Positions 9,801 to 52,025 of a DNA stretch of 64,000 bases are shown piece after piece. Position 1 is the first letter of the stretch; each line of letters begins with the position of its first letter. The translations under genes were made by a program, and so were the position numbers. This DNA comes from a virus. The DNA lies in IMG/VR virus record IMGVR_UViG_3300007515_000003, positions 1 to 64,000 of that record. One strand, written 5' to 3'. The notes below the pieces were generated by a model. It was not told the origin of the DNA and searched no databases. It was given only the letters and a program-made list of their open reading frames with translations.

Positions 9801-12800
9801 CCCAATCTTTAGCCCAGTCGTGAGGCATCAGCCATAGGTTTCCTTTATATATAACCCTATCACCATGACGATACCACGTAGAACTGTCCCAATCAAGTAT
9901 TTCCTGAAATAAATCCGTCCACCATGATTGAATAAACTTGGTCCCGGCTTTCGGAAAATCTCCATATTTTATTGTGCCGCTCGGAATGTCGTTGTATGCC
10001 CTCCATAAGCGACGGTTACGTTTGGGGCTACGATGATCCTGAATGGATATTATATCTCCGGCGGATATATCATTTTCCCACAACCAGTTCATACATTCCC
10101 CTACGGGGATATTAGTTAAATCCGTGACCGCCAATTCATTGTATTGAGAACTTCGTTTCGATTGAGAGCAGTAGGAGTCCATTTGATTTTCTCGCCCACG
10201 CCAGGAATGGGCCTCATCGGGCCCAATCGTAAAATTATTCATTCCGTGCCTTTTGAGTTGGCCGTAAGCTTCCATGACATCTGTCATCGGGCCAAACCCA
10301 AAGTCTACCGCTCGCTGAGGGAATTTATAAAAACCAGCATATCGATTGAGCGAGCCCGCTCCCTGTTGAGCAAGGAAGGCTAACCAATGCTCGTAATTAG
10401 AGATTCCGGGGGCGGTATGTGGAGCCCCCTGCGACTGGCGTCTGTGCGGTAGTTGATTACCGGAAGAAAAGACTTGTCCCGCAAGCGTAAAGGTAGGATA
10501 TGAACCAAAATTGACGCCAATCCATACCTCTAATCTCTGTGTCCAATCCCACCCTTGGCGAAGCTGATTAAGAGCAAAAACCCAATCCCAAACGCTATAA
10601 CCGTTGCCCGCATCCAAGCCTTCCAATTGTTCTGCCCCAGCGGGAAGATACCTCTGCCAGTAAGTTGGAGAGGGAACCTCACGGTTAATAAAAGTATAGC
10701 CTTGAGTATCAGTCAATTCTATAGTTTCTTTATTATCTGAGGTTCGTTGATTCCATCCTGGAACATCGAATACGTCAAATTCCCCCAATCCGGAAAAGTT
10801 GTCGGGTTGTCGTTGATCAAGGCCCGCTGAATAATTTCGATAATCCACCGCAAGGGACACCTTGCCAGCCTTGTCGCCCCTGTCTGCCCATGCCAGCGCG
10901 CAATGGCCGCCTATTTTTTCGGCGAAACCCGTGTAAATTTGGCTATGACCAATGGAGGTGGCGTAACCTCGCAGGAACCTTTTATACGGATCGCCGCCCC
11001 ACTTTTGGCCCAGCTCCATTGTTTGGTGCATTATGCCTATCTGAGTTCGCCACCTGTGCTCCTTTTCGAGGCGGTCCACAGACCACATACTACTGTAACC
11101 AGTTTTCCCAGCCCCGGCCCCGTCTTTATCGGGAGCTATGTATGTGCCGTTAGGAATGGGCGCACCACCCTCAATACCTCCTTGACCCTCTTCCACCCTC
11201 CAATGCATTCTATATACTGTTCCACCAAAGTTGAACCTATCGCCGGGCTTCAAAAATGTATAATTATCGTGAGAAATTGCATCGCCGACCAAACCGTGAT
11301 TGTGATACTTGCCCAATTTGGTCATGGTGTTGGAGTTCGGATCCAACCAACCCCAAGACACATTCTCGCCGACGCCTTGGTTTTCTTGCCCGACAAGCAA
11401 ACTGAATTGCGACTTCCAACTTTGATGAGCCTTATCCCCGAAGGGCAAAGACCACGGGTCGCACATCCAGGCCCCAAACATGGCGGTTGAGGGGAAATTT
11501 ATCCTTCTATACTCCAAATGACCCTGCAAGAGCAAAGAAAATACAGAGTCAGGTATTACCTCCGGACAACCTTGAGTAAGCGCTCCGGTCTGCAGTCCCA
11601 ATATTTTTGTCAGACTCCCGCGTCCTGACGCCGCAGTAAGCCTTGGGTTCTTTGGTTCGTCCTTCACTCCAAACTGAGAGCTCTCAGCTTTAGTGGTATC
11701 AAAATCGCCAACAATCCAAGCATCATCATTAAATCTGTCATTGAAATTTCCGCCGAAAATAGAGTAGCCGAAAGTGTACGCCAAAGAATCTCCAAACGAG
11801 CTATGCAAGCCCCAAGTATCGGTCGCAGCCTCTGAGTATCTCTCAATTTTGGAGTATATTGGCCATTTTATGTCAGGATGATACTCTCCTTCATTCCCTG
11901 CGGTTGCCATATCGGGCACCTCGGAAATGCTACCCGCCGGCTTCCAGCTGTAAGTTTCGTCGCCAGTAAACCGGTTCATAAATTTAAACGCATCAAGCGC
12001 GCCTCGGGGGTGGTGAGTAGGGAGTGCTGGGGCCCATTGGGAAACGCTCATCTCCCCCATCACTTGCCACCAATTATACATGCCATCAGGAGGATTTTGT
12101 GAATTATTCGCATGATTCACTACGCCGGGAAAGTAATAATTGTTCCATCCGTGCTCAGAAGCATTAGAGAATAAATCGATCAAGTCCAGTTGACCTGCTG
12201 TGGGCCATGATTTAAAATTGAAGTCCCGTATAAAGCTCGGCGCGAACGGATCTAGTGAACCCCACCCGCAGCTCGCGTCTCCCCACGCTAAGCTCACTAC
12301 ATGGGAAAGCATGTTCGTCCAGGTGACAGTTATACCGGTCGGCGCATTGGAGCCAGACACAAAACTGCCCAATAGATTATGGGTAAAATCTATATATTCG
12401 GTGTCGAGCAAATTCTTCTCATTCACTATATTGGTATTACTGTCGCCATAGAATGGGTTGACAGATTCTCCGAAAATCGAACCTGCCGTCCCGAGATATT
12501 CGTTGTCTTGCCCTCCATAATATAAATACATAGTCCCTGACCCCCCATAATCGACTTGACTGGTGACGCCGACGCCCGCATGGTCAAGGTCTAGGTGCCA
12601 CCCTGAAATTCTTTCGTCGGCCCAGGTTGACGCATTAGTTCGAAGGGAGGTATAGCTCTTTCCTCCAATAATATCCCCGGAGGAATCCGGGGCATACATG
12701 ACCTGGAAGCCCTTGGAAAATAACTCCCCGCTCTCGTTTACATAACTAATTGTTGCCCATCTATCAAGCTGCCATTCCCTGTAAAAATATTGAATTGGGT

Positions 12801-15800
12801 TAACATTAATCATTGACGCGGAGGACTCCCTCCAATACAATTCCCCAAGAGAACTGCCAGGTTCAAAGGAAAAGAAATGGTCTTTAATACATTGGTAAAT
12901 CGTGCCTTTATGAGTTACAAAATCAGGTTCGCGACCAATAAACGCAGAACCCGCCTGATCGGCATTGGACCCTGCTACCATATCACTACCATAACCGTGA
13001 TGAAATAGTGTATTTGGTTGCCCGTTTAGGAGCTGCGAATGCCCAGAGGGAAGGCTTGTTCGGTATGATTTGTTTGATACCCATGCGTCAGCCAATCGAT
13101 TAATTTCCGGGAGAACCTTGTCCCGAATATCCTTCGACCCCTTACGACACAACTTGCCATCGATAAATTGTGGCCACTTTCGAATTCGCCGCTTGGGTTT
13201 ACTCCAAAAGCCAAAAGAATCCATAAATACCTGCTTTGCAATAATAGGCTCACCCTCTCGACCACTTGCGTCATCAAGAATTACCGCAGGAGCCCCCTTG
13301 AACGAGTAATTCTCTAAATAAGGACGCAAACCAACGCCCCCACATTTGTATGACCTTCCTTCCGATATAAATGTCGCACAATCACCTTGTAAAGATATGA
13401 ATTCTACATTTGGAAAAATAAATTCGGGGCCATCCAAAAATTCAGATTCCAATCCGAGCGCATTCCCAAGTGAGCGCCCCTCATATTCATCCCTATCAGA
13501 GCCCGATATTTTATTCTCACCCGTTCCAAAAAGATTTCCCGATTGAGAAAGAATGAGAGAATTATTACCAGAGGCGGCGACAGCGATAATCTCGTCTAGT
13601 TCCACGGCTTGATTGTTGTTATTACCATGAGAAATTAAATGCGGTTTTATAAAGATTTCCCTAGTGCAGAAATGCGTGTCACCGAATGCTTTTTTATATA
13701 ATTTGAAATTTGCAGTGCGGGGCATTTTAATTTCCGACGAAGGAAAAGTGTGAGTAGCACCGTCGTTTGGCATCATTCCTAATTTTCCCAAAGGGAACCA
13801 TCCAGACAAACCCGTCGACCCAAGTGTGCCACCTGCGCCATTTTCCTGATTAACAAGGGCATGCATCGCCTCACCAATAGAGCCAAACGTGAGAACCTCC
13901 ACGTCAGGCTTCTGCCATTTCCCTAATTTGTTGGTATCCGCCCAATCCGACTTGAGCGTTTCAGGGGGCAGAGTCTCAAGTCCTCCGTTCTCCGTTATGC
14001 TCGGAATGGATATTTGGAGATGCTCCTGAAGTAATGTACCTTCTACGCCTTCGCCGGGGCCGACGTAAACGACATGAGAAACGTGGTCTATCCAAACCCG
14101 ACTTCCGGGCTGATAAGTTTTACCATAGGCCCATTTTTCAGGAGGTAGTGCCGGTTGCTCTATTGCGCTCCACGAAGGATCGTAAATTGGGTTAAGGCTA
14201 GAGGGGGCGGTGCCCTCTAACTTATAAAAACCTTTGCCGGACTCCCTGCCCAATCTATCGCCTAAATCGAAATCGCTTTCGATTCCCCCGGTTTTGTTTC
14301 TCCAATCTATTTGCTGCAGGGAATTGTCCCCAACGCCGAACACTTTGCCTGAGGCAGTCCTTATTAGAATGTGGTCGGAGCCAGCCTCAACTTGCAGCGC
14401 CTTATCAGAGCCATAATCCTCGTGGTCGTATAGCGTATGAGGCTCGGGAGTAAGAGTTGTACTGCTAATCTCATCCTCTATATCTGCCAGCGAATTTGTG
14501 CTCAGGTCATAGGTTTTAGTGATCGCCTTGGGTGCGGGCATCGACCATTTTTTGCCGTCCACTCGCTCAAGGGATTCGCTAAAGCCTATATCGCTAGTAT
14601 TGTCGTCCTTCATGGAAACGAACACCAGAGTACCGAAAAGGTCATCTCCATCAGCGACCTGAGCGGTAACAATGTCGCCCTCATTATAGGAAGATTTCGA
14701 TATTGTACTGCCTTGATATTCTGGGTCCTCACCCATGCCGGCAGCCGCAGTATAATCGAAAAACCCAGAAAACCCGCGTGGCGAATACTTTATATGATTT
14801 TCCCAACTTCCGATGCCAGGCAAATTGGACCCGTAAATGGCGTCGTTATCAAGTATCCAACCCGCATGAAAGACAATATCCCCACTGTCATGAAATTCTT
14901 CGTTCACGGCCGCACCACCAATTTCGGCAGAAAGCAAATACCTGAATTTTCCCTCATCGCCCAGTAACCCCCATCCAGTTGGCTGACCCCAGTCATATTC
15001 CCACATGTAAAAAGTGTGATACCCTTGAGCAAGTACGAGCGGTGGATCGAGGTCCTCATGATGACCTCCCCCATTATTCTCGGGCCACGTCCAAGCGCTC
15101 GCTGCCATCACTTTGTCCTGATCATAGCCCGTACCTGTTTCTCCAGCAACGCCATCGGCATAAGCTCGTACGTCAGGAGGGCCGTCATCGAGAATCGACC
15201 ACACAACCCTATGGTCATTATACGAAATCATCCCGTATCTTGTTTGAACAATAGTGCTCCAATCTCCAGCGGTTCTTGCATCGGTCGTTTTTCCCGGAGA
15301 ATACATAACTCCCCACCTTCCTTGGGTCAAAATCTCAGGCTTAATAGTTCTTAAAACAATCCCAGAAGAAGGTCTTACGTATATATGGAAGAAAATTCCT
15401 GAATCCTTCCTCCAGCCGGTCCCAGTGCCGGTAAAAGCTAGTTTCCCTACGATCTCTCCGTCAATCACGGGGAAGAGGGCATTCCCTACGCCATAATTTT
15501 CCGCATTAGACGATATTTCAGTAAAATCAATATCTATCCCGCTCATAAAACACTCGAAGCGCTCGCCGTCCTCCTTCTTAGTTTTCTCTGCGTCAGTAAT
15601 GTAAATCCATTGTCCGTATTTAGCGGTATAATACCAATTGCCGCCGGTTTTGCCCAATGACGTCAGCTTATTGTTTGCAGCCTGGGAGGCCCTGGCAAGG
15701 AAGGTGTGTCCTAATATCGGGTCTTCCACCCAATCCCTCATATAGGTTTGACTGACATACTTATTACGGAACCATTCGCTTTTCGCCAGGGTCCTTCGCT

Positions 15801-18800
15801 CAAGGGTCGACTTATGCCTGATGGCCCCGTATCGAGTGGCTCGATCTGCTTCCGTCAGGGGCCCTGCCCAATGCAGCTTTGCATATTCTTCGCCCGTCAT
15901 CCAAGGGTAGAGTTCTTCTCTAGCATCAGCTACGTCAGTCCAAACATTCATATAATAATCCCAGTCGGTTTGGTCGCCATACCAAGTATAACCGGCGTAA
16001 TCCTCCTTTTGTTCGTAGTCCTCTAAGGGGTATGGAAGTATCCCGGTCACCATATCTGTACTAAGTTTTCCGGCAGCACCACCAATTCCATTTCCAGCCC
16101 GGTGCTGGATCCGATATTCAGTTTTAACCTCCGCGTCCTCAGTCCATATCTCTGCGCCATATCCTAACAATAATGGAGCGTTTATGGTAAGGTTGGTCAC
16201 CAGTAGTCCTGCAGGGTTATTAACGTTCCCCGCATTTTTCACATACATCACCAATGCATTATTTCCTGCCGCTCCAGCTCCAGCCCTAAAGATATTACTA
16301 GCCCCGATGCCCTGGGGTCCGATGTCTATGGAGTTAAGCTCCCCAAACCACCCCCCATACCAGGCTGCGGTCACAGGCTTGCAGGAAACGCTATATATAA
16401 AAGCTGTCGAGTCACTCGAGGTAGTGTGGCATATAAATTCTACGCTGTGAGAGGTATGCGTGGCGACGAAAGTAAACTTTGTTTCCGTCCATCCAGACCC
16501 CAAATCTCCGACGTCAATGGCTTGGTGCCCACTTCCTGCATAATCGTTAACTAGATTTCCTCCTTGTACCGCTTCTAAGTTGTCAACAGTCGCGGTCGGC
16601 ACGCCTCCCTCCCACGCCCAAATTATTGCTCCAACATCAGGCTCGGAGTAGGCGGTCCGGTATGAGACAAAAAACCGCACCTCATATTTCTGGCCCACCG
16701 TCAGGGGTTTTGGATAATTCGGCCCATACCTTTCTGCACTCAGTTCAGATCCTTGATGCCACTGAGTGAAGCCTGCTCCGCCAAGCTTGTCGGGATTCCA
16801 TGTTCCAAGCTGAACGTATTCATTAACCGATGGGTTGAGGGATCCGGAGTCTTTATGGCCCCCGAATCCATATGTGTTAGGCGTATAATCATACCCCCAG
16901 GGCACGAGGTGCAATCTTGCCGCGCCACTGAGGCCTCCTGTTTCAACATGAGACTGTAACCCCCAATAATAATTCGCGCCCCCGTATTTACTTCGCATCA
17001 CGCCTGGCTCAGTGTCGTAGCCCAACTGGCGCGATCCCCACGCACTGCAATTGTCCTGTATAATTACAACCTTGGCGAAATTATAAACCCCCATACAGGC
17101 CAAATCAGAGAGGCTTGGCTTATTGGAGTTGTCCCAGGTGGTCGGATGATTTGGCCGGCTATAGTCGTAGCTTTTGTCAAGCAAATTACTGAGATATTCA
17201 AAACGGTTACCGTGGTTATCCAGATGCAATTCTAGCGTCTGAGCCACGTAGTGGGTCGTTTGGTTTAATTGTTCATACGCTGGATAATGCATCCCGTGGT
17301 CGCGAAGCTCCTCATCCAAGTTTGAGCCACTCGCCCCAAACCAAGATGTTGCAGTATTCCCAAACCCGTCCCTGTCGTTATTCTCCCCCCAAAAAGTCCC
17401 CCATTTTGTAACTCCGGGTAAAATTTGTTGTTCCCCAGATTTGCGAGCATGATCGTGCCAGTATGTGGTATACTTGGGGTTGCCGTTGTTGTCCACAAAA
17501 TCCGGATGATCCTCTAGCCATAACCACACGTTGGCAGTCCAGTTGTCGGGAAATAATGGTCGCCACCCAAAAAGGTACTGGTGGCCATTGCCACCAGCAT
17601 AACCAAGCATAGACTTATTAAAGTCCCAATTAGTCAGGTAAGATGTTGTCTCCCATTCCTCACCAGTAACCAAGTCGGGATTTATGCTGTGCCACCCGGC
17701 CTCACTGTGGATTTGAATATCCAGCATTGTATTATCCACTGCGAAGTCGAATGACACTGTAACCTGTGATACATCAATTCCTTCATCAAGGTGAAAGGCT
17801 TGATAGAAAACGGGAGTGGCTTGCGGCCATAAAGTCGGCACCCCACCTTGTTCACTCCACCAAACCCCCACCCAGCTACTTCCTTCTGGCGCATCCAGCC
17901 AGTTCCCCGGAATAAGATTGTTTGGTATCCAGGCCGCTGGGTAGAGGGGGTCGTTCGCCGTTGCGGGTAACACGCCGTTGGGCTGCACAGACCAAGCGGT
18001 ATCCTTTTTGCTGTCGGAAGAATATTGGCCCCCAAACTGGACCCCAGTATTATAAATGTTAATCTCTTTGTGAGATTCTCGCTGAGTCAGTACGGACCAT
18101 ACCGCAACATCAGCGGGGGTTTTGTCCACCGTAGTAGTGACGGCTCCCTTGGCATATTGTTTATCAAATTCGTTGGAATTATAATAGGTTGCGGTGCTCG
18201 CCCTCCAATATCCATTATAGAACCAAATTAAATTATCTACATTTGCAACGTGCCTATATACCGGGTAACCACCGGTTGGACTGGGGAGGTCGACCTTCCG
18301 GTACGATCCCGCAATCCCCACGCTGGGGTCACTGATGGTTGTGCCGTCCTGACGGATTACATTTCCACCAAAGAACTCAATGGAACCCCAGTCTTCTTCA
18401 GCGATCCTTTTAACATCTGGATTTAAACCATTGCTGTCCGTAGCAACATAGGCTGGCCCCGTGTTTGGCCAATATTTATGGAGATAATTATTGTTTAAAT
18501 TATCGAAATTTGTGCTGGCTGCATCCTGGGTAACCAGCGGGGTGATACTCTCGCTTACGCTATTCCACTCGCCAGGAATAACTCCAGGAAAGGTGTGGGC
18601 TCCAGCGCCTTGATCCCCAATTTTACTCCAAAGGGAGCCCGAGTAGGATACATATTGACCGTTAACATAATCTATATGTTCTATATATGGCTCCCAGGTT
18701 TCTCCGTAGGCAATATTGCCTTGTATTAGCGATCCATATTTTACGGCTTCCCCACCCGCAAATGGGTCGGGATCGCGGTCCGTCATATGATGAATCAGGC

Positions 18801-21800
18801 CCCAGTTGTCATTTTGCCAAAGTTCATTTACCGTTAAATCTCCGAACGAATCAAAGGTATCGCTCCCACCATGGAACATAACATTATCCGCTCGCCTGAC
18901 CTCGCCATGGGTTGCTTCGCTGTGGAAATCCAAGCCTTGCACCGGGATGTCCTTGCACCCTATAATTGACCCTAGGATTTTTACATCGCCGTCTTCTGTG
19001 ACGTAGATCGTAGAATGCTCATTTGTTGACGCCCAAACAACATTATCATCTGTTAATTTTACCGGAAACGGGACCGCCGGAGCATTGCGGTTTGCAGCCA
19101 ATTTAAGGCAGTTCGCCCTAAGATTATTGTCATCGTTATTATTGAGAGAGTGCTGACTCGGGCGATCCATGTATGAATAATTTGCTCGATCCTTAAGCCT
19201 ATACATCGCAAGGGCGAGGCATTCAGTGCCAGATACCGTCATGGTCTTGCTATCGTGGAAGTAATCTATAACGCAATGATTTTTGTGCGATCCCCCGTAA
19301 GGCAGGTCTAGATCTGGCCAGCCTATGTACTCCCATTTGGGACTAATCCCCGGCTCGTCTTCCGGAAGGGCGTTTTCGATGGAGACCCATCGTTCGCCCA
19401 AATGCTCCCTTTCCTTAAACCAACTAATGGACTCATTATCGGTCCACGGAGCTGCTTCGCGGGCTCCATTGTATTTCTTGTCGTGCCCCCACCAGCTCCG
19501 CTCATTCCAATCCGGGGTGCCCCATTCGCGCGTAGTGTTAAAGCGGTCCCCATCGTCCCATTGAGACGTTGGGTACAAATTCTGAAATTTACCATGTGGC
19601 CACGAGATGCCGTTCCAGGAAGTGAGCTTGTTGGAAATTTCCGCATTATCCCGATACGGAAAAAGCCAAGCTGGAACCATCCACCCTCTGTCATTTTGTA
19701 CGGCCGCCCCCGCCATATGTCGCTCTTTGCTCCCCTCAAACCCTGCGACAACAAAATGTTCCCTCTTCTTCGTCGCAGAATTATCGGTATCTGTGCCGCC
19801 ATAAAATTCCCAAGCGGGCTTTATCATCATGGTAGAAAGACTCTTAGCGTACTCCGATGTACCATCGAGAGAGAACGAGACATCATAAGCACCCTCCGCT
19901 CCGGATCGAGCCTGTCTTGCGAATGGAATATAGTCCTCAGAGTTGAGAATAAAATGAGTATTTACGACCTTGGGAACGCCCCGGTTGTCAGGCTTATCAA
20001 ACCCGACGCATTCAATCCCCCCTTCTTTCCAGAAGTTTATATTGTCGTACCACGGAAGAATTCTTCCTGCGATTTTTAATTGCTCCTGAGAGGCCCACCA
20101 AGGTGTCACGCCAGCAGGATATAACTCTTCCTCCGGAATCCATGTTACATTATTATGCAAATAGGAATCTTGCTCGGCGCTAGTCTTATCGAACCAGTCT
20201 AACGGAAATGTGGCCCATGCCATCCTCTCCCATTGCGGGGCAGGGTTAGCCCGGTTATGATCTTTTGTTAGGTACGTCGCCCACCCCGCAAGGTGGGGGT
20301 CGTTTTTATTGCTTGCAATTGGGTCGCCTGCGGCGTGGTTAAAGTTGGCATATGATAAAAGGTCGAATCTGTCTTCGGCATCAATCAAATCATGAGACCA
20401 ATCTCCCCAGTCTTCGGGATCGTCGCTAGAGCTATTGAAGCTTTTATCTGTGATGCCTAGGGAGTTGTTTTCGTTCTTCCCGAATCCATATAGCTTCTTG
20501 TCTGTAGTAATAAATACGGTATTACCTCCCCCAGACCTAACGAAATCTATGTCGGGTTCTGGGTCTAATAAGGTATCAGTCGTGCCGTTCGCGTATATTT
20601 TTACCCTTTGCAGCTCGTCGTCTTGTGCGTCCTTCAATGGGGCACACATATTATGCTTTCCAAACGTATCTAAGTTCCATTCTAAATTTGAACCGTAATA
20701 TGTTTCAGGTTTGCCGTCAATTTTCTTATAATTACTAATTCCGAGGTACCCCAACTCGGAGCTGTCCATTCCAGAGGCATACAGCTTATTATTTGAGATC
20801 ATGAATCTATTTTGCCAGCCCAAACCAGCAGAAACGGCATAGGTTTTGCTAACGGCATTATTTACGTCAAGATACGTATCTGCGTCCACATCCGGAGCCG
20901 CGCCACTTACGTTTGTAATCTTAACTGACATTGGGAGGATCGCCGTGTTCTGTAGTCCCGCAAATGAATTGCCCAATTTAAATTCTGAAACGAACCCTAA
21001 ATTCCCCCTCAAGACCGTGGGCGAATTAAAGGCATAATTAAATAAATCAACATCTTTCCTTTGTGTGCCCCCAGGGTTCTCATTAGAGAAAAGGGATAAC
21101 GTCAATTCTTTTGTTGAACTCATATAGCTCTGGCCATCAACGGCTTGCATCTCGAATGAGATATTAATATTCAAGCCGGAATTGGTAAATATATTTGACA
21201 TGTTATCAAATGGCCTCAAAAGATATTCGCTTTCGCCATGAGTGGAGTCGAGTATATTTTCTGCGCTGGGACTAACTCCTCCCGCTGGTTCGCCTGAAGC
21301 ATTATGAGCGTCTAAGCATGAATAAAATACCATTACGTCATTTGATTGGCTCAGCTCGTTTTGCGTCGGCAAACTTCCGGAATCCTCATTGGAGTTCCAC
21401 ACCACACCTCTTTCCTTCGCGTAGACTATATCTCCCAATTCATAGGGTAAGTTATTTTTCCATTCATCCACTCGCTGCCACATGGATTCAAACAAAGACG
21501 GCTGAACGCCAGAAGACGCGCGCCGAGCGTAATATAATATATTTAGTTCCTTTGTGAAATCTCCGGTGTCGAATGATTGATCGTGGGTCCAGGGAGCAAT
21601 CTCTCCCTCTGGTCCGCTGATGTTTTTCCATTTTGGCATTACCTGCAATTTATCTCCAAGCTGCTCAAGCAGTCCTATATTAGATCCGTTGTTTTCTATT
21701 TTGAGTATTGAAGAATTTTTATGGGACACTTCATCGTATTGGTATTCAATTTTACTATTCATGCCGCCCAACAAAGAATCTGAATCGAGGAGCGACTCAC

Positions 21801-24800
21801 TAATAATCCTTGATGCATACTCCACAGGTCGAACAAATACCCAAGATTCACTCACGCCAGGTACTTGGCCTGCGGGGATATCAGTATCGGCTTGCCACAC
21901 ATAGGTGCCATCGTGCACTGCCTCGTCAGCGGAGTAGGCCTGGTTGGAAAGCCACTGAGATGGTTCGCCGATCCTTATGTAGGGACTTTCCATAATCCCT
22001 GCGTATGTCAGTCCAAAATCAGAATAAGAATCGCCGGTGTTTATCGGCAACCTTAGGTATCTTCCTAAAACATTAGCATTGGACATAGAGGAAATAAACC
22101 CAGAGTAGGTCGTAAAGTTATTCCCGTCCGCCCCCTTTAGCTGGGGGATTAGTTTAATTGTTTGATTGGAATTGATGCTGATTTCCCCACCATCATATAT
22201 TGCGCCATGATTTGGATGGCCAGTATCGGCGTTTCCTCCAGTATATATTTCAGTTGTTAACTCTATTGTTGGAGGGTATGACTCATCCTCTTTAACGAAC
22301 TTAATTGGATTTACATCGCCCACTCCTCGACTATCGAGATTAAATCCTGCGTCGAGATTGAAGTCGATATCACTATCAATCGAGTCCACCCAACCCCTGA
22401 AGGCCCGTATGGCAGGATGCCTATCTTCATCTTGATTATTCTCGTTAAGTGGGTGTGGAAGGTCTCCCGAAGAAAGGGTGTCGCCTTCTGCCCTCAGATC
22501 AACGTTCCAGTCCTCATAGTTAACACTTACATAGTCAAGCGATGCCAAAAACAAAGGGCTATCTGCATCCGGAACGCCGCCGACCCAAGTATCTATCATA
22601 TGTGTTGTGGGATATTTTATTCTTGGAGTCCAGAACTTCGCATTGTTGCCGGAGGCATCATAGGTTTTTAATCTTGGCCCAAAAATATCCAGCCTAGAGT
22701 TGAAGGCTTCAGACACGGCGTATTCGCTTGAACCTTCGGCCTTATGTATAAAATCAAAATCTCCTTCAGTTAAAAAGTATTGTGGCTCCACGCCAGCAGC
22801 GATCTCCTCTGAAGATGGATAGGTGCGATCAAGGTCAAATTCCCTACGCGCCACCGGCTGCCAATATTCACTAGGACGAATAACCAATGTATAGTTGCTC
22901 GTAAATCCACTCATAGTCCCGGAATTTATCGACACGGGGAATTCGTAGATTTTTTTACCGACATACCCGGAAATGTCAGCCTTATATTGAAGGCCCTCTA
23001 TAACGGTTGAGTTTTGCAAGTTCCCTTCCAAAACAAAATTATCATCCAATAGGGGAGTTGCATCCGAGACATAACAGAACTGTTTAATTTTAACCCGCCA
23101 TTCATTGTCGTCCATTTTTACGGCGTCACCAATTCGATAGTAATTTTCATAGGTAAGATCATATGAATAATTATCCGAACCAAAGAGGTCCCTCTGTCGA
23201 ATTTTGAATTTTCCATCCAATTCCTCCAACCCGTAATATTGAGCGTAAGCCCTTCCTCGATTGTCATTATTTGCGGGATCGACATTAGGGTCAATGCGCT
23301 CTGCGGTAAATTCGTTCTCGGTAATTTCGAGCCAAGTCGTTTCGGCATATAAGTTCTTTCCTCTAAATCTGGAATATTGTAGATCTTCTACTAGGTTCGA
23401 TAAAAAATACGCCGTCTCACTTGCGGACTCTTTTGGAAATATCCCAGGAACAATCCCCACACCGGCCGGATCTGCAGGAGAATCTGTATCCTTTATGCAC
23501 TGAAAGCAATATGAGGCGACCGCTGCGTCTGCCTTAAGAAATAAAAACTCAGCACTATCCAAAAGGTTCGTATTCTCATCTGTGGGATAGCGCCCGGCCC
23601 ACTCCTGGTAGGTCAGGCTTTCCCCCGAATTCGGGTCGACCATAGTAGGGGTTTTCTCCTTAAGTGTGACAAGATCTCCGACCTTGTAATTTTCGGCCTG
23701 CTCCATATCCCACGGAGCTATATCATACAATCTTTCAGACATTAATCCAAGTCCGCTTGCTCCATCAAGAGAATTAAACCACTGAAGTCCTAGCGTAATC
23801 CCCGATTTGTTATTCGGGGGAGAAGTAGATAGGCCCGTCTGTGACGACTTAAAGATTTTAACCCAACCATCGTAGAGGGTAATCTGAGTAACCATGGATA
23901 ATGGTGAAATCGCGGTATTGCTGAGAATACTTAGCCTGGTCCACTTCTCTTTGTTTAAAATTGGATCGTTATCTGCCGATGCCCCCATCGAGACATTAGC
24001 CTTAAAGAATAAATTTAAATGTAATGGAAAAAAGTTTTCATTATCATTCTTTAGGGATTTGTAATATATTTTTGCTCCGTCGTCTTGATATACGTATACT
24101 GTGTTATGCTCGTTTCCCGGAGAAACCCATTCAGAATATACTTTCTCTTGTCTCCAGGCATCACACGCGATTGCTGTGGTCACCTCCCACCAATCTTCCC
24201 GTGGGACCCTAGTCATATTGCCTCCGGAATATTCCTTGGTATCATTCCATTCAGGTATATTTGCCAAGGTCTGAACGTTGCCCTGGGGATTTCCCGTACG
24301 ATCAACAGTTAAACTGAAAATAGATTCCTGCTGGAGGTCCGATCGCCCCAAATCTATAAAGTGTTTTGCCTCAAATAAATTTTGCGATGTATCCGCATCA
24401 ATCGTAGTCGACAAAACCTGATTGCCATCGGCAGTAAGATCTTTAAACTTACTACCGTCAAAACCCTTAAAGCCAGTCTGAAGCAACCCTAATGCTGCAC
24501 TAAACTCTGAATCCGACATCTCGTCAGTTCTTTTTAGAATAGGCAGAAAAGCGGCGTCAACGTGAGAATTGATAAATTTCTTGCCTTCATTCTCGATCTG
24601 ATCTGCCCTGCCGAGCTTGTTGCCTAATATTAAATAGTGACAGGGGTTGTCTCCACTAACCGAGGCGCTACCGGTTATAGTCTTAATTGAGAGCAATTTG
24701 GTCAAAGCCTGATCCTGGGTGCTGGACTCAAGTTCGTAGTCATAATCTACATTCGTTTTTGGTTGTCCATGATCTAAGCTCATCGAGCCCAGCGCCCCAT

Positions 24801-26574
24801 GCCCGCCGACATACATATTGCCATTACTGAAAATTTGGGGCGTTACGAATTCGATTCTCTGCCGAGAAAGCACATCCTCGACCATCATGATATACTTGCC
24901 TAACTGTGTACTGCCCTTATTGGAGCCGGGGTGAACACCCCCTCTTCTCCTCGCGTGAACATAGCCCCTCCTCATATAAAAAAATGGCGTAAGATCTCGA
25001 TATTGAAAATGTAGAAGATCTCCCTCGGAGGCCAGGTCAGTATTAATATTGTTGGGGTTCAATATTCCCTGAAGATAACGATTTATGTCGGATCTGGATA
25101 TTTGGGATGTAGAATATGTGCTAATCCCTGACGTGGAGCTGTAGGAGCTTAACTTTGTGGTCCTTCCAAAGGTGACCGCCAATCTAGGCTGCCCCCCATG
25201 ATCCTTTCGGAGGGTTTTTGTATAAATAAATATATCATATCCGCCATCTTGGTACGGGCCGCTTTCACTGCTGGCGCCAGAATACCATGACCGGCACTTA
25301 TCCCTGCTATATCTTTTTAAGGGTTTTGCGAATTTCACCAATAAGTGACCGAAGATATTGGAAGACCCAGTAAAGTCTGCCATTCTTATGCGGCCCGCTT
25401 CTCGCTGTACGGGTTGGCCTGCTAGGTTTGTTTGGCCTTGGTACGAGCTATTATGGGCAAACTTTTTGATTTCAAATTTTTTCTCAGAGAAATATTTGTA
25501 TATTGATGCAAGCGATGAATTTGGGCGATTAATTTGAGAGTCATACTTAACCCAATACTCATTAATCTCACCGCTTTCCGAACCGTACCATGGGGTTCTT
25601 TCGGAATTCCATGATCCGTTCGCATTAGAAGCGCTCGAGGGGTAAGTTTTAGCGGCCCCAACCTCTTTTTTGCACATGGCTAAGGAGGGAAATCCAATTA
25701 AATTAAACGTTTCCGTCCAGTTGGTTAAATCATCGATGTTTGCCAGTCCAGATGGGGGATTATAGCTAACTATATCGCCAGGAAAATAAGTTAGGCCGGA
25801 ATTCCACTGGCTAGACCCAGATATGTTGTCCTCGGCACTCATTTTTGCATCTAAAAAATCGAAGGAAGCCCCCATAACAGCATTAAGCGAAGTTGACGAA
25901 AATCCAAACCTCCTGTCGGGGAGCGCACTTATATCATTGTCCCCAAACCCGTATTCAGGATAATCCACAATATATCTATCTATTATCTGCCCATCTTGCC
26001 CAGTTGCCGGTGAGGCCGTTCTTGCGGATCCGCCCCCAAAAGAAATTTCCGAAACGGGCCTTAATTGAATCGGGTTCTTAGATGAACCAGATTTGGGAAT
26101 TAGACAAGAATAACACACTAGATATTTCATGTCAATAAACTCTGATAAATTTAAACAAATTTCATTGTCGTGCATTATTCCTCCCGTCGCCCATTCACTC
26201 TTGGCATCAACCTCCCTCAAGCTCCCGGCCTCGCTAATTGAGTAGTCTTGTGCGAGTTCAGCGAAACTCTTAAAATAGGTATTAAAGTTTGCGTCAGATA
26301 CTCCTGCTCCGGCACTCTTCAGGACGCAGACATATAAATTAAATTGACTTGGTTTTGATCTAGATTTTCTATCCAAGAAATCGTCTGCGCCAGAGACCTT
26401 GTGAACAACCTGCCCCAAATCATAGTTTTTGTACGGCCTGAACCTTGCGTACCACACGGGGAGCGCCCCAGGAAGCCCAACCCTTGAAGCGCCGAAAAGT
26501 GTTCTTGTTGTCGATATGGTCGTGGGATCGGCAGAAAGAAAGTTTAAATTAAAATCTATGTTTACGCCACCCAT
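6805..26574 (-). CDS. giant 6589-residue adhesin or tail-fibre-type protein
   Basis: One open frame of 19.8 kb without a stop. No signal peptide or membrane helix was noticed. RCC1-like segments occur near residue 1925 (LYASGMDSSELGYLG), 2030 (LYGFGKNENNSLGI), 2525 (IYVTEDGDVKILGS), 4070 (VFGVGDNSLQQI) and 4345 (LFGTGENKISG). Short modules of the pattern Y-X-X-G-D-X-V with a following Trp and Pro-Gly recur (YFPGDIVSY near 270, YRHGDRVIYKGNLW near 5565, YYPGDRAWWKGELYEC near 6330); they resemble carbohydrate-binding modules of the chitinase CBM5/12 type. It is very rich in Trp, Tyr, Gly and Asn. A host-surface-binding virion fibre is the best inference. The ATG overlaps the TAA of the upstream gene (TAATG). 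Confidence 0.85.
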   Translation of the reverse strand: MGGVNIDFNLNFLSADPTTISTTRTLFGASRVGLPGALPVWYARFRPYKNYDLGQVVHKVSGADDFLDRKSRSKPSQFNLYVCVLKSAGAGVSDANFNTYFKSFAELAQDYSISEAGSLREVDAKSEWATGGIMHDNEICLNLSEFIDMKYLVCYSCLIPKSGSSKNPIQLRPVSEISFGGGSARTASPATGQDGQIIDRYIVDYPEYGFGDNDISALPDRRFGFSSTSLNAVMGASFDFLDAKMSAEDNISGSSQWNSGLTYFPGDIVSYNPPSGLANIDDLTNWTETFNLIGFPSLAMCKKEVGAAKTYPSSASNANGSWNSERTPWYGSESGEINEYWVKYDSQINRPNSSLASIYKYFSEKKFEIKKFAHNSSYQGQTNLAGQPVQREAGRIRMADFTGSSNIFGHLLVKFAKPLKRYSRDKCRSWYSGASSESGPYQDGGYDIFIYTKTLRKDHGGQPRLAVTFGRTTKLSSYSSTSGISTYSTSQISRSDINRYLQGILNPNNINTDLASEGDLLHFQYRDLTPFFYMRRGYVHARRRGGVHPGSNKGSTQLGKYIMMVEDVLSRQRIEFVTPQIFSNGNMYVGGHGALGSMSLDHGQPKTNVDYDYELESSTQDQALTKLLSIKTITGSASVSGDNPCHYLILGNKLGRADQIENEGKKFINSHVDAAFLPILKRTDEMSDSEFSAALGLLQTGFKGFDGSKFKDLTADGNQVLSTTIDADTSQNLFEAKHFIDLGRSDLQQESIFSLTVDRTGNPQGNVQTLANIPEWNDTKEYSGGNMTRVPREDWWEVTTAIACDAWRQEKVYSEWVSPGNEHNTVYVYQDDGAKIYYKSLKNDNENFFPLHLNLFFKANVSMGASADNDPILNKEKWTRLSILSNTAISPLSMVTQITLYDGWVKIFKSSQTGLSTSPPNNKSGITLGLQWFNSLDGASGLGLMSERLYDIAPWDMEQAENYKVGDLVTLKEKTPTMVDPNSGESLTYQEWAGRYPTDENTNLLDSAEFLFLKADAAVASYCFQCIKDTDSPADPAGVGIVPGIFPKESASETAYFLSNLVEDLQYSRFRGKNLYAETTWLEITENEFTAERIDPNVDPANNDNRGRAYAQYYGLEELDGKFKIRQRDLFGSDNYSYDLTYENYYRIGDAVKMDDNEWRVKIKQFCYVSDATPLLDDNFVLEGNLQNSTVIEGLQYKADISGYVGKKIYEFPVSINSGTMSGFTSNYTLVIRPSEYWQPVARREFDLDRTYPSSEEIAAGVEPQYFLTEGDFDFIHKAEGSSEYAVSEAFNSRLDIFGPRLKTYDASGNNAKFWTPRIKYPTTHMIDTWVGGVPDADSPLFLASLDYVSVNYEDWNVDLRAEGDTLSSGDLPHPLNENNQDEDRHPAIRAFRGWVDSIDSDIDFNLDAGFNLDSRGVGDVNPIKFVKEDESYPPTIELTTEIYTGGNADTGHPNHGAIYDGGEISINSNQTIKLIPQLKGADGNNFTTYSGFISSMSNANVLGRYLRLPINTGDSYSDFGLTYAGIMESPYIRIGEPSQWLSNQAYSADEAVHDGTYVWQADTDIPAGQVPGVSESWVFVRPVEYASRIISESLLDSDSLLGGMNSKIEYQYDEVSHKNSSILKIENNGSNIGLLEQLGDKLQVMPKWKNISGPEGEIAPWTHDQSFDTGDFTKELNILYYARRASSGVQPSLFESMWQRVDEWKNNLPYELGDIVYAKERGVVWNSNEDSGSLPTQNELSQSNDVMVFYSCLDAHNASGEPAGGVSPSAENILDSTHGESEYLLRPFDNMSNIFTNSGLNINISFEMQAVDGQSYMSSTKELTLSLFSNENPGGTQRKDVDLFNYAFNSPTVLRGNLGFVSEFKLGNSFAGLQNTAILPMSVKITNVSGAAPDVDADTYLDVNNAVSKTYAVSAGLGWQNRFMISNNKLYASGMDSSELGYLGISNYKKIDGKPETYYGSNLEWNLDTFGKHNMCAPLKDAQDDELQRVKIYANGTTDTLLDPEPDIDFVRSGGGNTVFITTDKKLYGFGKNENNSLGITDKSFNSSSDDPEDWGDWSHDLIDAEDRFDLLSYANFNHAAGDPIASNKNDPHLAGWATYLTKDHNRANPAPQWERMAWATFPLDWFDKTSAEQDSYLHNNVTWIPEEELYPAGVTPWWASQEQLKIAGRILPWYDNINFWKEGGIECVGFDKPDNRGVPKVVNTHFILNSEDYIPFARQARSGAEGAYDVSFSLDGTSEYAKSLSTMMIKPAWEFYGGTDTDNSATKKREHFVVAGFEGSKERHMAGAAVQNDRGWMVPAWLFPYRDNAEISNKLTSWNGISWPHGKFQNLYPTSQWDDGDRFNTTREWGTPDWNERSWWGHDKKYNGAREAAPWTDNESISWFKEREHLGERWVSIENALPEDEPGISPKWEYIGWPDLDLPYGGSHKNHCVIDYFHDSKTMTVSGTECLALAMYRLKDRANYSYMDRPSQHSLNNNDDNNLRANCLKLAANRNAPAVPFPVKLTDDNVVWASTNEHSTIYVTEDGDVKILGSIIGCKDIPVQGLDFHSEATHGEVRRADNVMFHGGSDTFDSFGDLTVNELWQNDNWGLIHHMTDRDPDPFAGGEAVKYGSLIQGNIAYGETWEPYIEHIDYVNGQYVSYSGSLWSKIGDQGAGAHTFPGVIPGEWNSVSESITPLVTQDAASTNFDNLNNNYLHKYWPNTGPAYVATDSNGLNPDVKRIAEEDWGSIEFFGGNVIRQDGTTISDPSVGIAGSYRKVDLPSPTGGYPVYRHVANVDNLIWFYNGYWRASTATYYNSNEFDKQYAKGAVTTTVDKTPADVAVWSVLTQRESHKEINIYNTGVQFGGQYSSDSKKDTAWSVQPNGVLPATANDPLYPAAWIPNNLIPGNWLDAPEGSSWVGVWWSEQGGVPTLWPQATPVFYQAFHLDEGIDVSQVTVSFDFAVDNTMLDIQIHSEAGWHSINPDLVTGEEWETTSYLTNWDFNKSMLGYAGGNGHQYLFGWRPLFPDNWTANVWLWLEDHPDFVDNNGNPKYTTYWHDHARKSGEQQILPGVTKWGTFWGENNDRDGFGNTATSWFGASGSNLDEELRDHGMHYPAYEQLNQTTHYVAQTLELHLDNHGNRFEYLSNLLDKSYDYSRPNHPTTWDNSNKPSLSDLACMGVYNFAKVVIIQDNCSAWGSRQLGYDTEPGVMRSKYGGANYYWGLQSHVETGGLSGAARLHLVPWGYDYTPNTYGFGGHKDSGSLNPSVNEYVQLGTWNPDKLGGAGFTQWHQGSELSAERYGPNYPKPLTVGQKYEVRFFVSYRTAYSEPDVGAIIWAWEGGVPTATVDNLEAVQGGNLVNDYAGSGHQAIDVGDLGSGWTETKFTFVATHTSHSVEFICHTTSSDSTAFIYSVSCKPVTAAWYGGWFGELNSIDIGPQGIGASNIFRAGAGAAGNNALVMYVKNAGNVNNPAGLLVTNLTINAPLLLGYGAEIWTEDAEVKTEYRIQHRAGNGIGGAAGKLSTDMVTGILPYPLEDYEQKEDYAGYTWYGDQTDWDYYMNVWTDVADAREELYPWMTGEEYAKLHWAGPLTEADRATRYGAIRHKSTLERRTLAKSEWFRNKYVSQTYMRDWVEDPILGHTFLARASQAANNKLTSLGKTGGNWYYTAKYGQWIYITDAEKTKKEDGERFECFMSGIDIDFTEISSNAENYGVGNALFPVIDGEIVGKLAFTGTGTGWRKDSGIFFHIYVRPSSGIVLRTIKPEILTQGRWGVMYSPGKTTDARTAGDWSTIVQTRYGMISYNDHRVVWSILDDGPPDVRAYADGVAGETGTGYDQDKVMAASAWTWPENNGGGHHEDLDPPLVLAQGYHTFYMWEYDWGQPTGWGLLGDEGKFRYLLSAEIGGAAVNEEFHDSGDIVFHAGWILDNDAIYGSNLPGIGSWENHIKYSPRGFSGFFDYTAAAGMGEDPEYQGSTISKSSYNEGDIVTAQVADGDDLFGTLVFVSMKDDNTSDIGFSESLERVDGKKWSMPAPKAITKTYDLSTNSLADIEDEISSTTLTPEPHTLYDHEDYGSDKALQVEAGSDHILIRTASGKVFGVGDNSLQQIDWRNKTGGIESDFDLGDRLGRESGKGFYKLEGTAPSSLNPIYDPSWSAIEQPALPPEKWAYGKTYQPGSRVWIDHVSHVVYVGPGEGVEGTLLQEHLQISIPSITENGGLETLPPETLKSDWADTNKLGKWQKPDVEVLTFGSIGEAMHALVNQENGAGGTLGSTGLSGWFPLGKLGMMPNDGATHTFPSSEIKMPRTANFKLYKKAFGDTHFCTREIFIKPHLISHGNNNNQAVELDEIIAVAASGNNSLILSQSGNLFGTGENKISGSDRDEYEGRSLGNALGLESEFLDGPEFIFPNVEFISLQGDCATFISEGRSYKCGGVGLRPYLENYSFKGAPAVILDDASGREGEPIIAKQVFMDSFGFWSKPKRRIRKWPQFIDGKLCRKGSKDIRDKVLPEINRLADAWVSNKSYRTSLPSGHSQLLNGQPNTLFHHGYGSDMVAGSNADQAGSAFIGREPDFVTHKGTIYQCIKDHFFSFEPGSSLGELYWRESSASMINVNPIQYFYREWQLDRWATISYVNESGELFSKGFQVMYAPDSSGDIIGGKSYTSLRTNASTWADERISGWHLDLDHAGVGVTSQVDYGGSGTMYLYYGGQDNEYLGTAGSIFGESVNPFYGDSNTNIVNEKNLLDTEYIDFTHNLLGSFVSGSNAPTGITVTWTNMLSHVVSLAWGDASCGWGSLDPFAPSFIRDFNFKSWPTAGQLDLIDLFSNASEHGWNNYYFPGVVNHANNSQNPPDGMYNWWQVMGEMSVSQWAPALPTHHPRGALDAFKFMNRFTGDETYSWKPAGSISEVPDMATAGNEGEYHPDIKWPIYSKIERYSEAATDTWGLHSSFGDSLAYTFGYSIFGGNFNDRFNDDAWIVGDFDTTKAESSQFGVKDEPKNPRLTAASGRGSLTKILGLQTGALTQGCPEVIPDSVFSLLLQGHLEYRRINFPSTAMFGAWMCDPWSLPFGDKAHQSWKSQFSLLVGQENQGVGENVSWGWLDPNSNTMTKLGKYHNHGLVGDAISHDNYTFLKPGDRFNFGGTVYRMHWRVEEGQGGIEGGAPIPNGTYIAPDKDGAGAGKTGYSSMWSVDRLEKEHRWRTQIGIMHQTMELGQKWGGDPYKRFLRGYATSIGHSQIYTGFAEKIGGHCALAWADRGDKAGKVSLAVDYRNYSAGLDQRQPDNFSGLGEFDVFDVPGWNQRTSDNKETIELTDTQGYTFINREVPSPTYWQRYLPAGAEQLEGLDAGNGYSVWDWVFALNQLRQGWDWTQRLEVWIGVNFGSYPTFTLAGQVFSSGNQLPHRRQSQGAPHTAPGISNYEHWLAFLAQQGAGSLNRYAGFYKFPQRAVDFGFGPMTDVMEAYGQLKRHGMNNFTIGPDEAHSWRGRENQMDSYCSQSKRSSQYNELAVTDLTNIPVGECMNWLWENDISAGDIISIQDHRSPKRNRRLWRAYNDIPSGTIKYGDFPKAGTKFIQSWWTDLFQEILDWDSSTWYRHGDRVIYKGNLWLMPHDWAKDWGDWGDPATDNYNRGLGIRGDDTMPGTTGVWKSSIEDGAGTKPHWVIGNHHGGPDNQVSDGGTPGDGGCTSHNQGADQNPEKFALYSAKDMIENWKDRPYTARHNRELRFELAERFINAEEIDEYNPLASTIYAPEIIWAKDIELGKRYTVVFPGWDREWVNGELHETIDDWVDEFGEEWEEWTFDLPNGYWPTGAGDSIRQYMLNFASGTSELGLGIGELEHRGDSSFIAKKSGWNVLSADALWYGGQVGHDWGLFNVYNSIMFFHPWRMFDWRPTWGEYGRVSAADWETMTNGLPAMYRPYYASEPGTAAQPAGSGPLGESLYRSAYTNASLPHCAGDVILSDGDLFLAKNCGSHGVGAAWDTCAIYAFWHLGSYEPFPPPSESKSRWQEEYDDKISDGLSPTVLDPIYRNVPGESTMGGAEDHPMMWGDYRIATQADVDAGANSSINTPPTEVGDAFGKVDWSGAKKVTNQFLPDSSNGPMWLGEAYDQPLLRKKSWERLLRKLHPSLQMSGWGFGNNLEPGAWGGCQVRPYSPPGYYRGDLVKTQDGGVWKVWRFNEEGGSASGYGTGDDAPGGANNKWEYIGENGDSLGWLLTGAKGAFYSESYLDSGNKQELTKWYINAEAGSDNILKGSTDIYDSEDVSITCRGSKMFASRDAAINWVIRRAKEREKLGFSWYDHKTRKWVAGRNWLWENINLERIWDYGGWELSEGGKPEGAGDNADIYVTMTPRTQYYPGDRAWWKGELYECQAFLRLNSSDEFTTHLGAGTSYVVGASNPWNAYNPDGRWGGTPVGDSVFPYTNHSLPHVDGEHIPPWWVKSGGGTFKLPVVGFDDYDGSHDNSKHQGAAGVREGSNLAGTMSIFPNDYFDTQEEAEAFARNPQVASNYSDSNTFQPGGPYKGHPGFTDADLIEITTEYCDKYGAAGVDGDCEVIYIGGAAHSQCLARMRGICDSWEEKIGNALPGGTIIPNGELFLSILGSAKWKDSWEDTGNKVDTD

Positions 26575-41491: not shown

Positions 41492-41538
41492 CAAAGAGTT
41501 ACGCTTGGCCGGGCTCCCCCCTAAGTCATAAGTCGTTG
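41492..41538. repeat. GC-cored inverted repeat R7
   Basis: Arms CAAAGAGTTACG and CATAAGTCGTTG with core CTTGGCCGGGCT plus a C-run. Confidence 0.8.
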
Positions 41539-41718: not shown

Positions 41719-41868
41719 ATGAAAAACGGAATAAGTCTCACCAAAAAGGAACTTCAAGAAATCATCGACCAAAATGTCGGTGACGCAAACGAGGGTTGTG
41801 TTCAGTCTCAACAGATTGTTGTCCACGCCCAATGGCTATTGGATAGGATTGCCAACCAATGGGGATGA
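41719..41868 (+). CDS. 49-residue protein overlapping the tmRNA-like RNA
   Basis: MKNGISLTKKELQEIIDQNV..., plausible helical protein with a promoter correctly placed. Its last codons and TGA are the first 8 bases of the RNA domain (GGGGATGA). Processing of the RNA would cut this mRNA. Confidence 0.55.
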   Translation: MKNGISLTKKELQEIIDQNVGDANEGCVQSQQIVVHAQWLLDRIANQWG

Positions 41869-41933
41869 TTGGATTCGATTTGCACTGCTTCATCGGGGCA
41901 AAGACTGCGGTTCAACTCCGCACATCTCCACCA
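41861..41933 (+). ncRNA. tmRNA tRNA-like-domain minigene (no tag region)
   Basis: 73 nt. Acceptor stem GGGGATG (41861-41867) pairs with CATCTCC (41923-41929) with G3-U70, the alanine identity pair; discriminator A and an encoded CCA follow (41930-41933). The T arm TGCGG-TTCAACT-CCGCA is perfect. The D side has no D-stem but carries GATTGGATTCGA, matching the universal GGATTCGA of tmRNA 5' ends. A 5-bp stem TTTGC/GCAAA closes a 14-nt loop exactly where a tmRNA would have its long pseudoknot and tag insert. It therefore looks like the aminoacylatable half of tmRNA alone. SmpB binding and charging are predictions. A tRNA is less likely: no D-stem, no regular anticodon arm. Confidence 0.7.
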
Positions 41934-45136: not shown

Positions 45137-45253
45137 CTATAATTCTTCTACCCACCAATAGCCTTCGCACTTAGTGAGAATGGTATCAATTCCGTTTTGT
45201 TGCTTCATGTAGACAAATTGCCTCGCATGGTGTTCGTGAATAAACTTATACAT
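45137..45253 (-). CDS. unknown 38-residue protein
   Basis: MYKFIHEHHARQFVYMKQQN..., ATG overlaps the upstream stop base; ends WWVEEL. Supported by coupling on the 5' side. Confidence 0.55.
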   Translation of the reverse strand: MYKFIHEHHARQFVYMKQQNGIDTILTKCEGYWWVEEL

Positions 45254-45594
45254 TAAAAGTCTGCTCCATAGGTTTCTTGCTCTCCAAAGCAACCGTAATC
45301 TTCGTCAGTCCCGAATCCTGCGGAAGTCATGGCAGAATCAAAATCTCCATCCATACTTTCGTCGATATCTCTTTCGTCGTTGATGTGCCATTGCTCAACC
45401 TCTTCACAAGAAATCATCTTGCCGTGCCAATCGTAAACGGCAAATTGGATTCCAAGATTAAGGTATTCGCCAGTTTGATTAGCCTCATCTATCAGGACTT
45501 CTGCTCGCATATAAGCTTGCTCAAGACCTTCACGATTTTTGTTCCAGAAATAGTCAAGCGTTTCATTTACAATTACTTCATATCTTTTTATCAT
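45253..45594 (-). CDS. unknown 113-residue acidic protein
   Basis: MIKRYEVIVNETLDYFWNKN..., with acidic C-terminal third (DERDIDESMDGDFD). Start set by leaderless promoter. First gene of a four-gene cassette that ends at R10. Confidence 0.7.
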   Translation of the reverse strand: MIKRYEVIVNETLDYFWNKNREGLEQAYMRAEVLIDEANQTGEYLNLGIQFAVYDWHGKMISCEEVEQWHINDERDIDESMDGDFDSAMTSAGFGTDEDYGCFGEQETYGADF

Positions 45595-45601
45595 ACCTAT
45601 A

Positions 45602-45630
45602 ATACTATACTAGAATGGATTTCGTGTCAA
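45602..45630 (-). promoter_or_regulatory. leaderless promoter TTGACA-N17-TAGTAT
   Basis: Seven bases to the ATG at 45594. Lies directly downstream of the U-run of the small RNA. Confidence 0.75.
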
Positions 45631-45640
45631 GGGTTTTTTT

Positions 45641-45765
45641 AAAAAAAGTGTCCCGTGCTGTGCCACATGACTGCACCCAGATTTATGAAGGTTGCGAGCC
45701 TTCTGTCTTGAGGGGTTTATGTCTCAAGTCTGACACGGGACTGAAATTGTGTTAAAATAATTATA
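45641..45765 (-). ncRNA. branched small RNA with its own promoter and terminal U-run
   Basis: No coding frame. Closing stem GTCCCGTG (45650-45657, plus-strand coordinates) with CACGGGAC (45734-45741). Inside are hairpins CTTGAG/CTCAAG, GAAGG/CCTTC and GTGC/GCAC, giving a multi-branched fold. On the minus strand the closing stem is followed by AC and seven T, a terminator-like end. It matches no RNA family I recognise. It could be a regulatory RNA, a riboswitch-like sensor or a decoy. Confidence 0.6.
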
Positions 45766-45770
45766 CCTAT

Positions 45771-45799
45771 AAGTATGACAGAATGAGCCGTGAAGTCAA
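45771..45799 (-). promoter_or_regulatory. promoter TTGACT-N17-ATACTT for the small RNA
   Basis: Same architecture as the leaderless promoters, but the position that would be ATG reads ATA, consistent with a non-coding transcript. Confidence 0.65.
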
Positions 45800-45904: not shown

Positions 45905-45951
45905 CAACGACTTACGCTGAAGCGGGGAGCCGGCCCCGTCATAAGTCATTG
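45905..45951. repeat. GC-cored inverted repeat R11
   Basis: Arms CAACGACTTACG and CATAAGTCATTG; core CTGAAGCGGGGAGCCGGCC. Confidence 0.8.
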
Positions 45952-45962
45952 ATAGTCAACGA

Positions 45963-51996: not shown

Positions 51997-52025
51997 ATAA
52001 TACTATATATTTGATTAAAAGTCAA
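51997..52025 (-). promoter_or_regulatory. promoter TTGACT-N17-TATTAT for the long RNA
   Basis: Overlaps the stop of the 52022 gene. Start site predicted near 51990; the first ATG-less leader confirms a non-coding unit. Confidence 0.7.

Follow-up and report, generated by a model that had tools for sequence, protein, structure and literature searches.

A putative stand-alone RNA cassette behind a leaderless-type promoter in a phage record

The locus at 45641-45765 of the DNA analysed here is, with a probability of roughly 0.6, a stand-alone RNA cassette, present in a single copy and served by a promoter and a terminator of its own, whose product acts as RNA. The DNA, which we call the window, is a stretch of 64,000 nucleotides (IMG/VR record IMGVR_UViG_3300007515_000003, positions 1 to 64,000) and is part of a phage record (G000) of 98,823 bases. 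The accessory region would be a chain of short cassettes, each with a promoter directly followed by its product. RNA polymerase would start at about A45764 and make a short leader and a branched RNA, it would stop at the U-run once the closing stem has formed, and the next gene would use its own promoter. Exchange of cassettes from about +1 of the promoter would leave either a leaderless protein or a structured RNA as the product, and here an RNA. Catalogues of phage accessory genes normally list proteins. If an RNA can take the place of a protein behind one and the same leaderless promoter, and vice versa, a part of the takeover or counter-defence repertoire of such phages would be RNA, and the window RNA is a short example that is open to test.

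Promoter, leader, stem and U-run all lie on the minus strand (Table 1), and this anatomy, like the separate promoter of the next gene, can be read directly in the sequence. The initial annotation had proposed a promoter of the leaderless type with ATA in the place of ATG, and this was borne out: the hexamers of the promoter (P1) match the consensus in the leaderless register of this phage, and A45764 lies at the leaderless distance. This start position is inferred from the spacing at leaderless genes; it sits in GGTATAAT, the corresponding stretch at the next gene is GGTATGAT, and the neighbouring leaderless genes have ATG where the RNA has ATA. The 8-bp closing stem followed by seven U was likewise found as described, the stem being 8-9 bp long and enclosing 76 nt, with AC between its 3' arm and the U-run. 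Promoter, stem and U-run are in register, and the proposal of a complete gene for a small RNA, with a protein cassette on either side, stands as the best reading of the anatomy. These signals suggest that the RNA is transcribed.

Table 1. Coordinates of the features of the RNA locus in the window, and of structured RNAs in related loci
Feature	Position	Strand	Basis
-35 hexamer TTGACT of RNA promoter P1, preceded by an A-tract	45794..45799	-	consensus match
-10 hexamer CATACT of P1, extended TG, spacer 16 nt	45772..45777	-	consensus match
Expected transcription start A45764 (ATA) and unpaired 23-nt leader	45742..45764	-	leaderless spacing, sequence, fold
Closing stem, 5' arm GUCCCGUG	45734..45741	-	pair probability 0.99-1.0
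Hairpin 1, CUUGAG / CUCAAG, loop 10 nt	45707..45728	-	pair probability 0.97-0.99
Hairpin 2 (alternative fold), GAAGG-CUCGCAA-CCUUC	45687..45703	-	pair probability 0.34-0.35
Hairpin 3 (alternative fold), GUGC / GCAC	45660..45676	-	pair probability 0.22-0.25
Closing stem, 3' arm CACGGGAC	45650..45657	-	pairs with GUCCCGUG
Run of seven U, predicted intrinsic terminator together with the closing stem	45641..45647	-	sequence, chance estimate
Promoter P2 of the next gene, TTGACA-17-TAGTAT, leaderless ATG at 45594	45602..45630	-	consensus match
GC-rich intergenic hairpin repeat, upstream of the RNA cassette	45905..45952		repeat families D3, D7, D8
Type B RNAs	L005:2942-3066, L007:3041-3172, L087:6364-6488, L099:11154-11277		
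Type B RNAs, continued	L006:1527-1659, L009:2382-2499, L009:2587-2719		
Three structured RNA stretches in an array, DUF932 gene to GP88	L079:2830-3150		

Almost every structure of the predicted ensemble contains the closing stem and hairpin 1. In the MFE fold (-32.5) hairpins 2 and 3 are fused; a fold made to include hairpin 2 is 0.3 kcal/mol less stable, and in the prediction a merged hairpin that pairs 45700-45689 with 45678-45669 competes with hairpin 2. Given the low pair probabilities and the small energy gap, the fold in which hairpins 2 and 3 are separate is one of two that are nearly equal; of the three hairpins first drawn inside the stem the first is retained, whereas the other two are present in only one of the two conformers. 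The fold has a z-score of -3.09, and 1 of 200 dinucleotide shuffles was equally good. The real window contains one GC-rich 8-bp stem with a span of at most 120 nt, at least 55 nt inside and then T6 or more; a shuffled window contains 0.08 on average (60 shuffles, first-order Markov chain). We rejected a plus-strand reading of the locus, which has a good fold but is without the U-run and opposed to the neighbouring genes.

Across the window and 48 related loci, a script picked out 723 distinct TTGAC/TATAAT-like sites, of which 406 have an ATG at 33-40 bases, most commonly at 35. Most such promoters therefore start leaderless messages, and the ATG-less start of the window RNA is a deviation. The motif TTGAC..TCTGNCA fits nine sites in the phage's own record: ATG is present at seven, at site 49407 a leader precedes the gene, and the promoter of the window RNA has neither an ATG nor a leader with a gene. 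ATG-less promoters of the same motif number 33 in the related loci, besides that of the window; by eye, we assigned 12 of them to tRNA-like or T-arm RNAs, and the other 21 read on into a gene and are by our reading ordinary leaders. The motif also stands in front of units other than RNA cassettes, and this, like the 21 leaders, counts against the cassette reading. A promoter-like site of the same class at 52025 in the window (minus strand) has no start of a gene of at least 25 codons at 30-74 bases.

The predicted terminator (stem and U7) precedes the promoter P2 of the next gene, at 45253-45594, and P2 comes after the U-run. The locus might instead be a regulatory leader of that gene, like an attenuator or a riboswitch, with transcripts from P1 ending at the U-run except where a signal makes the RNA refold, so that polymerase can continue into the gene. 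The two conformers only 0.3 kcal/mol apart would suit such a function, as would the terminator directly upstream of the gene and the many ATG-less promoters in relatives that run into a gene, some of them with a second promoter between. The terminator is however made by the closing stem, with its pair probability of 0.99-1.0, and not by hairpins 2 and 3. Moreover, the window RNA is absent upstream of the 45253-type gene in the six relatives with a long match to this gene (L005-L009 and L024). Because of this absence and of the gene's own leaderless promoter, the idea that the RNA is only the leader of the 45253-45594 gene, raised as an objection in the initial annotation, is disfavoured, and we regard a regulatory leader as quite unlikely. 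That the RNA has a predicted terminator to itself, and the next gene a promoter apart from P1, rather suggests that a stand-alone RNA would act in trans.

Related uncultured phages carry covarying cloverleaf RNAs behind promoters of the same type as that of the window RNA, and for these we coined the names type A and type B. The type A RNA has a closing stem of 9 bp and three hairpins with the T-arm last, and its loops contain the mutually complementary CUGCAA and UUGCAG. The type B RNA is tRNA-like with a structured insert in place of the anticodon loop (34-52 nt as drawn by ARAGORN with introns allowed), and in 6 of 7 sequences read the conserved insert is followed by a further conserved element (TGAACAACGAGGCGTC...ACGCCTACAACC). 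Both sides change in 12 of 35 pairs in type A (8 sequences) and in 13 of 26 pairs in type B (4 sequences), but these are not independent events, since the sequences within each set are related. Type A was found in 11 and type B in 7 of 40 relative records, many of which are fragments, and no record has both; the chance probability of this mutual exclusion is about 0.08 by our own arithmetic, and the exclusion is thus only suggestive. The window's own phage (G001) has neither type. For the two stretches tried, no similar DNA turned up in annotated phages. In its default tRNA mode ARAGORN found none of 13 RNAs (12 of the relatives and the window RNA), and among nine loci scanned with Rfam at gathering thresholds one of the 13 was flagged, as an ordinary tRNA. 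Routine annotation would therefore miss this RNA part of the phage repertoire, if it is real.

The RNA cassettes of the relatives and their exchange were read from sequence comparison, base by base in two pairs only. L090 and L099 have flanks that are 92.4% and 92.5% identical, with a type A RNA in the one and a type B RNA in the other, and in L087 and L086, where the flanks are 92.4% and 91.7% identical, a type B RNA stands against a leaderless protein gene. The homology ends at about +1 of the promoter in both pairs. Cassettes thus seem to be exchangeable from about +1, with either a leaderless protein or a structured RNA following the promoter, and we infer that the window RNA is a cassette of this exchangeable kind. 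It lies in the interval between the DUF932 gene and GP88. In the closest GP88 relative (L079, 80%) these two genes enclose a type A RNA together with other branched RNAs, as an array of an unclassified first RNA, the type A RNA and a third one that is found also in L005 and, diverged, in L007. In L074, L076 and L077 a protein gene is present instead in the interval after DUF932, and in the relatives the RNA slot is usually directly after GP88 and not before the 45253 gene, which also counts against the cassette reading. L109 and L101 have longer protein genes in the slot just after GP88, and that of L109 may encode a protein resembling MutH/Sau3AI-type nucleases.

In the sequences searched the window RNA is a singleton. 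A second record, IMGVR_UViG_3300009104_001827, has an identical RNA and is 99.7% identical across 10.3 kb. With blastn no match was found in annotated phages, and in the related loci only the same phage and short matches; no Rfam family reached its gathering threshold (best chance match, E 1.7). A model built from the window RNA alone (R3) had no credible match in 48 sources, nor in 40 virus records, of which about 30 are GP88- or 45253-type relatives and the rest weaker matches. Among its weak matches, in L081, L083, L108 and G023 (E 0.06-1.8), the first lies inside an ORF of 373 aa and the last in a stretch that appears coding by eye. Several other candidates were also rejected. The 17-mer of hairpin 2 occurs in 11 stretches of viral contigs, one of them from the same phage and the remaining 10 in different contexts; three hairpins in L066 have similar loops, but nothing else there resembles the window RNA; the pattern of closing stem and T-run is found in one other contig, L118, with an unrelated interior. 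A 29-nt similarity in L110 and L102, which in L110 is the 3' end of a glycosylase-type gene, was taken as chance, and the stretch CACAATTT, which the window RNA has in common with the second RNA of L005 and of L007, is too short to carry weight.

It could be argued that a unit with no homologue in annotated phages, related loci, the 48 sources or the 40 records is a decayed or accidental one, in which a leaderless cassette has lost its gene (ATG to ATA), so that a promoter and a GC-rich structure resembling a terminator remain without function. Only 15 codons are open in the ATA frame, and the two records that hold the RNA are nearly identical here and therefore give no test of constraint. Yet the fold beats the shuffles, a stem with a T-run is expected only 0.08 times per window by chance, and RNA products behind such promoters are real in the relatives, which makes decay an improbable explanation.

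We do not class the window RNA as a tRNA, a type A or a type B RNA. It resembles types A and B in its branched form with a closing stem, in its type of promoter and in its DUF932/GP88/45253-type neighbourhood, but these have a T-arm and covariation, whereas the window RNA ends in a U-run and shows neither a T-arm nor sequence similarity to them. A T-arm, common to all type A and type B RNAs of the relatives, was looked for in its sequence and fold and was not found. Compared with tRNA (RF00005), it has a cloverleaf-like layout and an arm of anticodon-arm dimensions, but no T-loop motif and a closing stem of 8 bp. The RF00005 model has five matches in G000 and none at 45641-45765, ARAGORN with introns allowed did not report the RNA, and its mitochondrial mode gave a 52-nt fragment with a score of 18. 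If the window RNA were tRNA-like and a very diverged homologue of type A or type B, this would account for the four-way layout and the 8-bp closing stem as in type A, for the dimensions of hairpin 2 (5 bp and a 7-nt loop), and for the promoter motif and gene neighbourhood shared with the RNAs of the relatives. We find such a homology very unlikely, as models of type A and type B (R1 and R2) did not match, neither of the two tRNA searches reported the RNA and hairpin 2 is formed in only about a third of the ensemble. An antisense role towards leaderless starts was also rejected: among 22 starts the best duplex (-17.5) was equalled or beaten by 82 of 100 shuffles.

Structured RNAs are known from other phages. 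The manA and wcaG RNAs occur in cyanophages (PMC2864571, in the part of the text available), and in phages of the present group we found manA RNA (RF01745), in three relatives (L090:4871-5080, L092:5159-5366, L099:4786-4995). It is a known cis-regulatory family of about 190 nt, and the window RNA does not match it. CfrI, PhotoRC-II and wcaG are, in excerpts of two papers, phage small RNAs of cyanophages (PMC9964418, PMC12197685), and like the window RNA they are non-coding RNA genes or elements in a phage genome. By the description given there they are antisense or cis-acting, whereas the window RNA has no antisense signal towards leaderless starts and has its own predicted terminator. In mainly open literature we found, as far as titles and the beginnings of abstracts tell, no description of exchangeable phage RNA cassettes. 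A two-piece tmRNA is described in marine phages (PMC9004378, likewise in excerpt). On the plus strand of the window, 41861-41933 is a 73-nt RNA matching both ends of the tmRNA model (RF00023, 56.5 bits), and by this match it is the tRNA-like domain of a tmRNA, with a CCA end and no messenger part. A similar domain is found in the record of L009 (G030:20522-20585). The window's phage also has a full-length tmRNA (G001:55016-55391), as have eight others of the 40 records.

By analogy with the tRNA-like RNAs of the relatives, our guess is that the window RNA may stand in for some structured RNA of the host, as its decoy or mimic. A wider idea, speculative and on the whole unlikely, is that slots behind a fixed early promoter swap leaderless proteins and structured RNAs from +1, and that the RNAs (among them tRNAs with a folded insert in place of the anticodon loop, messenger-less tmRNA tRNA-like domains and the window RNA) would be decoys or inhibitors directed against host translation or a tRNA-targeting defence.

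GC-rich hairpin repeats (CAACGACTTACG...CGTAAGTCRTTGA) lie between genes at 41492, 42276, 43638, 44820, 45905, 47257 and 49900 of the window. A search for one exact pattern of this hairpin in bacterial genomes, done with the host in mind, gave 0 matches. Several of the repeats are just upstream of cassette promoters and similar ones are present in relatives, and one may ask if they are terminators or cassette borders. The minus strand of the window also holds a single ORF of 6589 codons, at 6805-26574.
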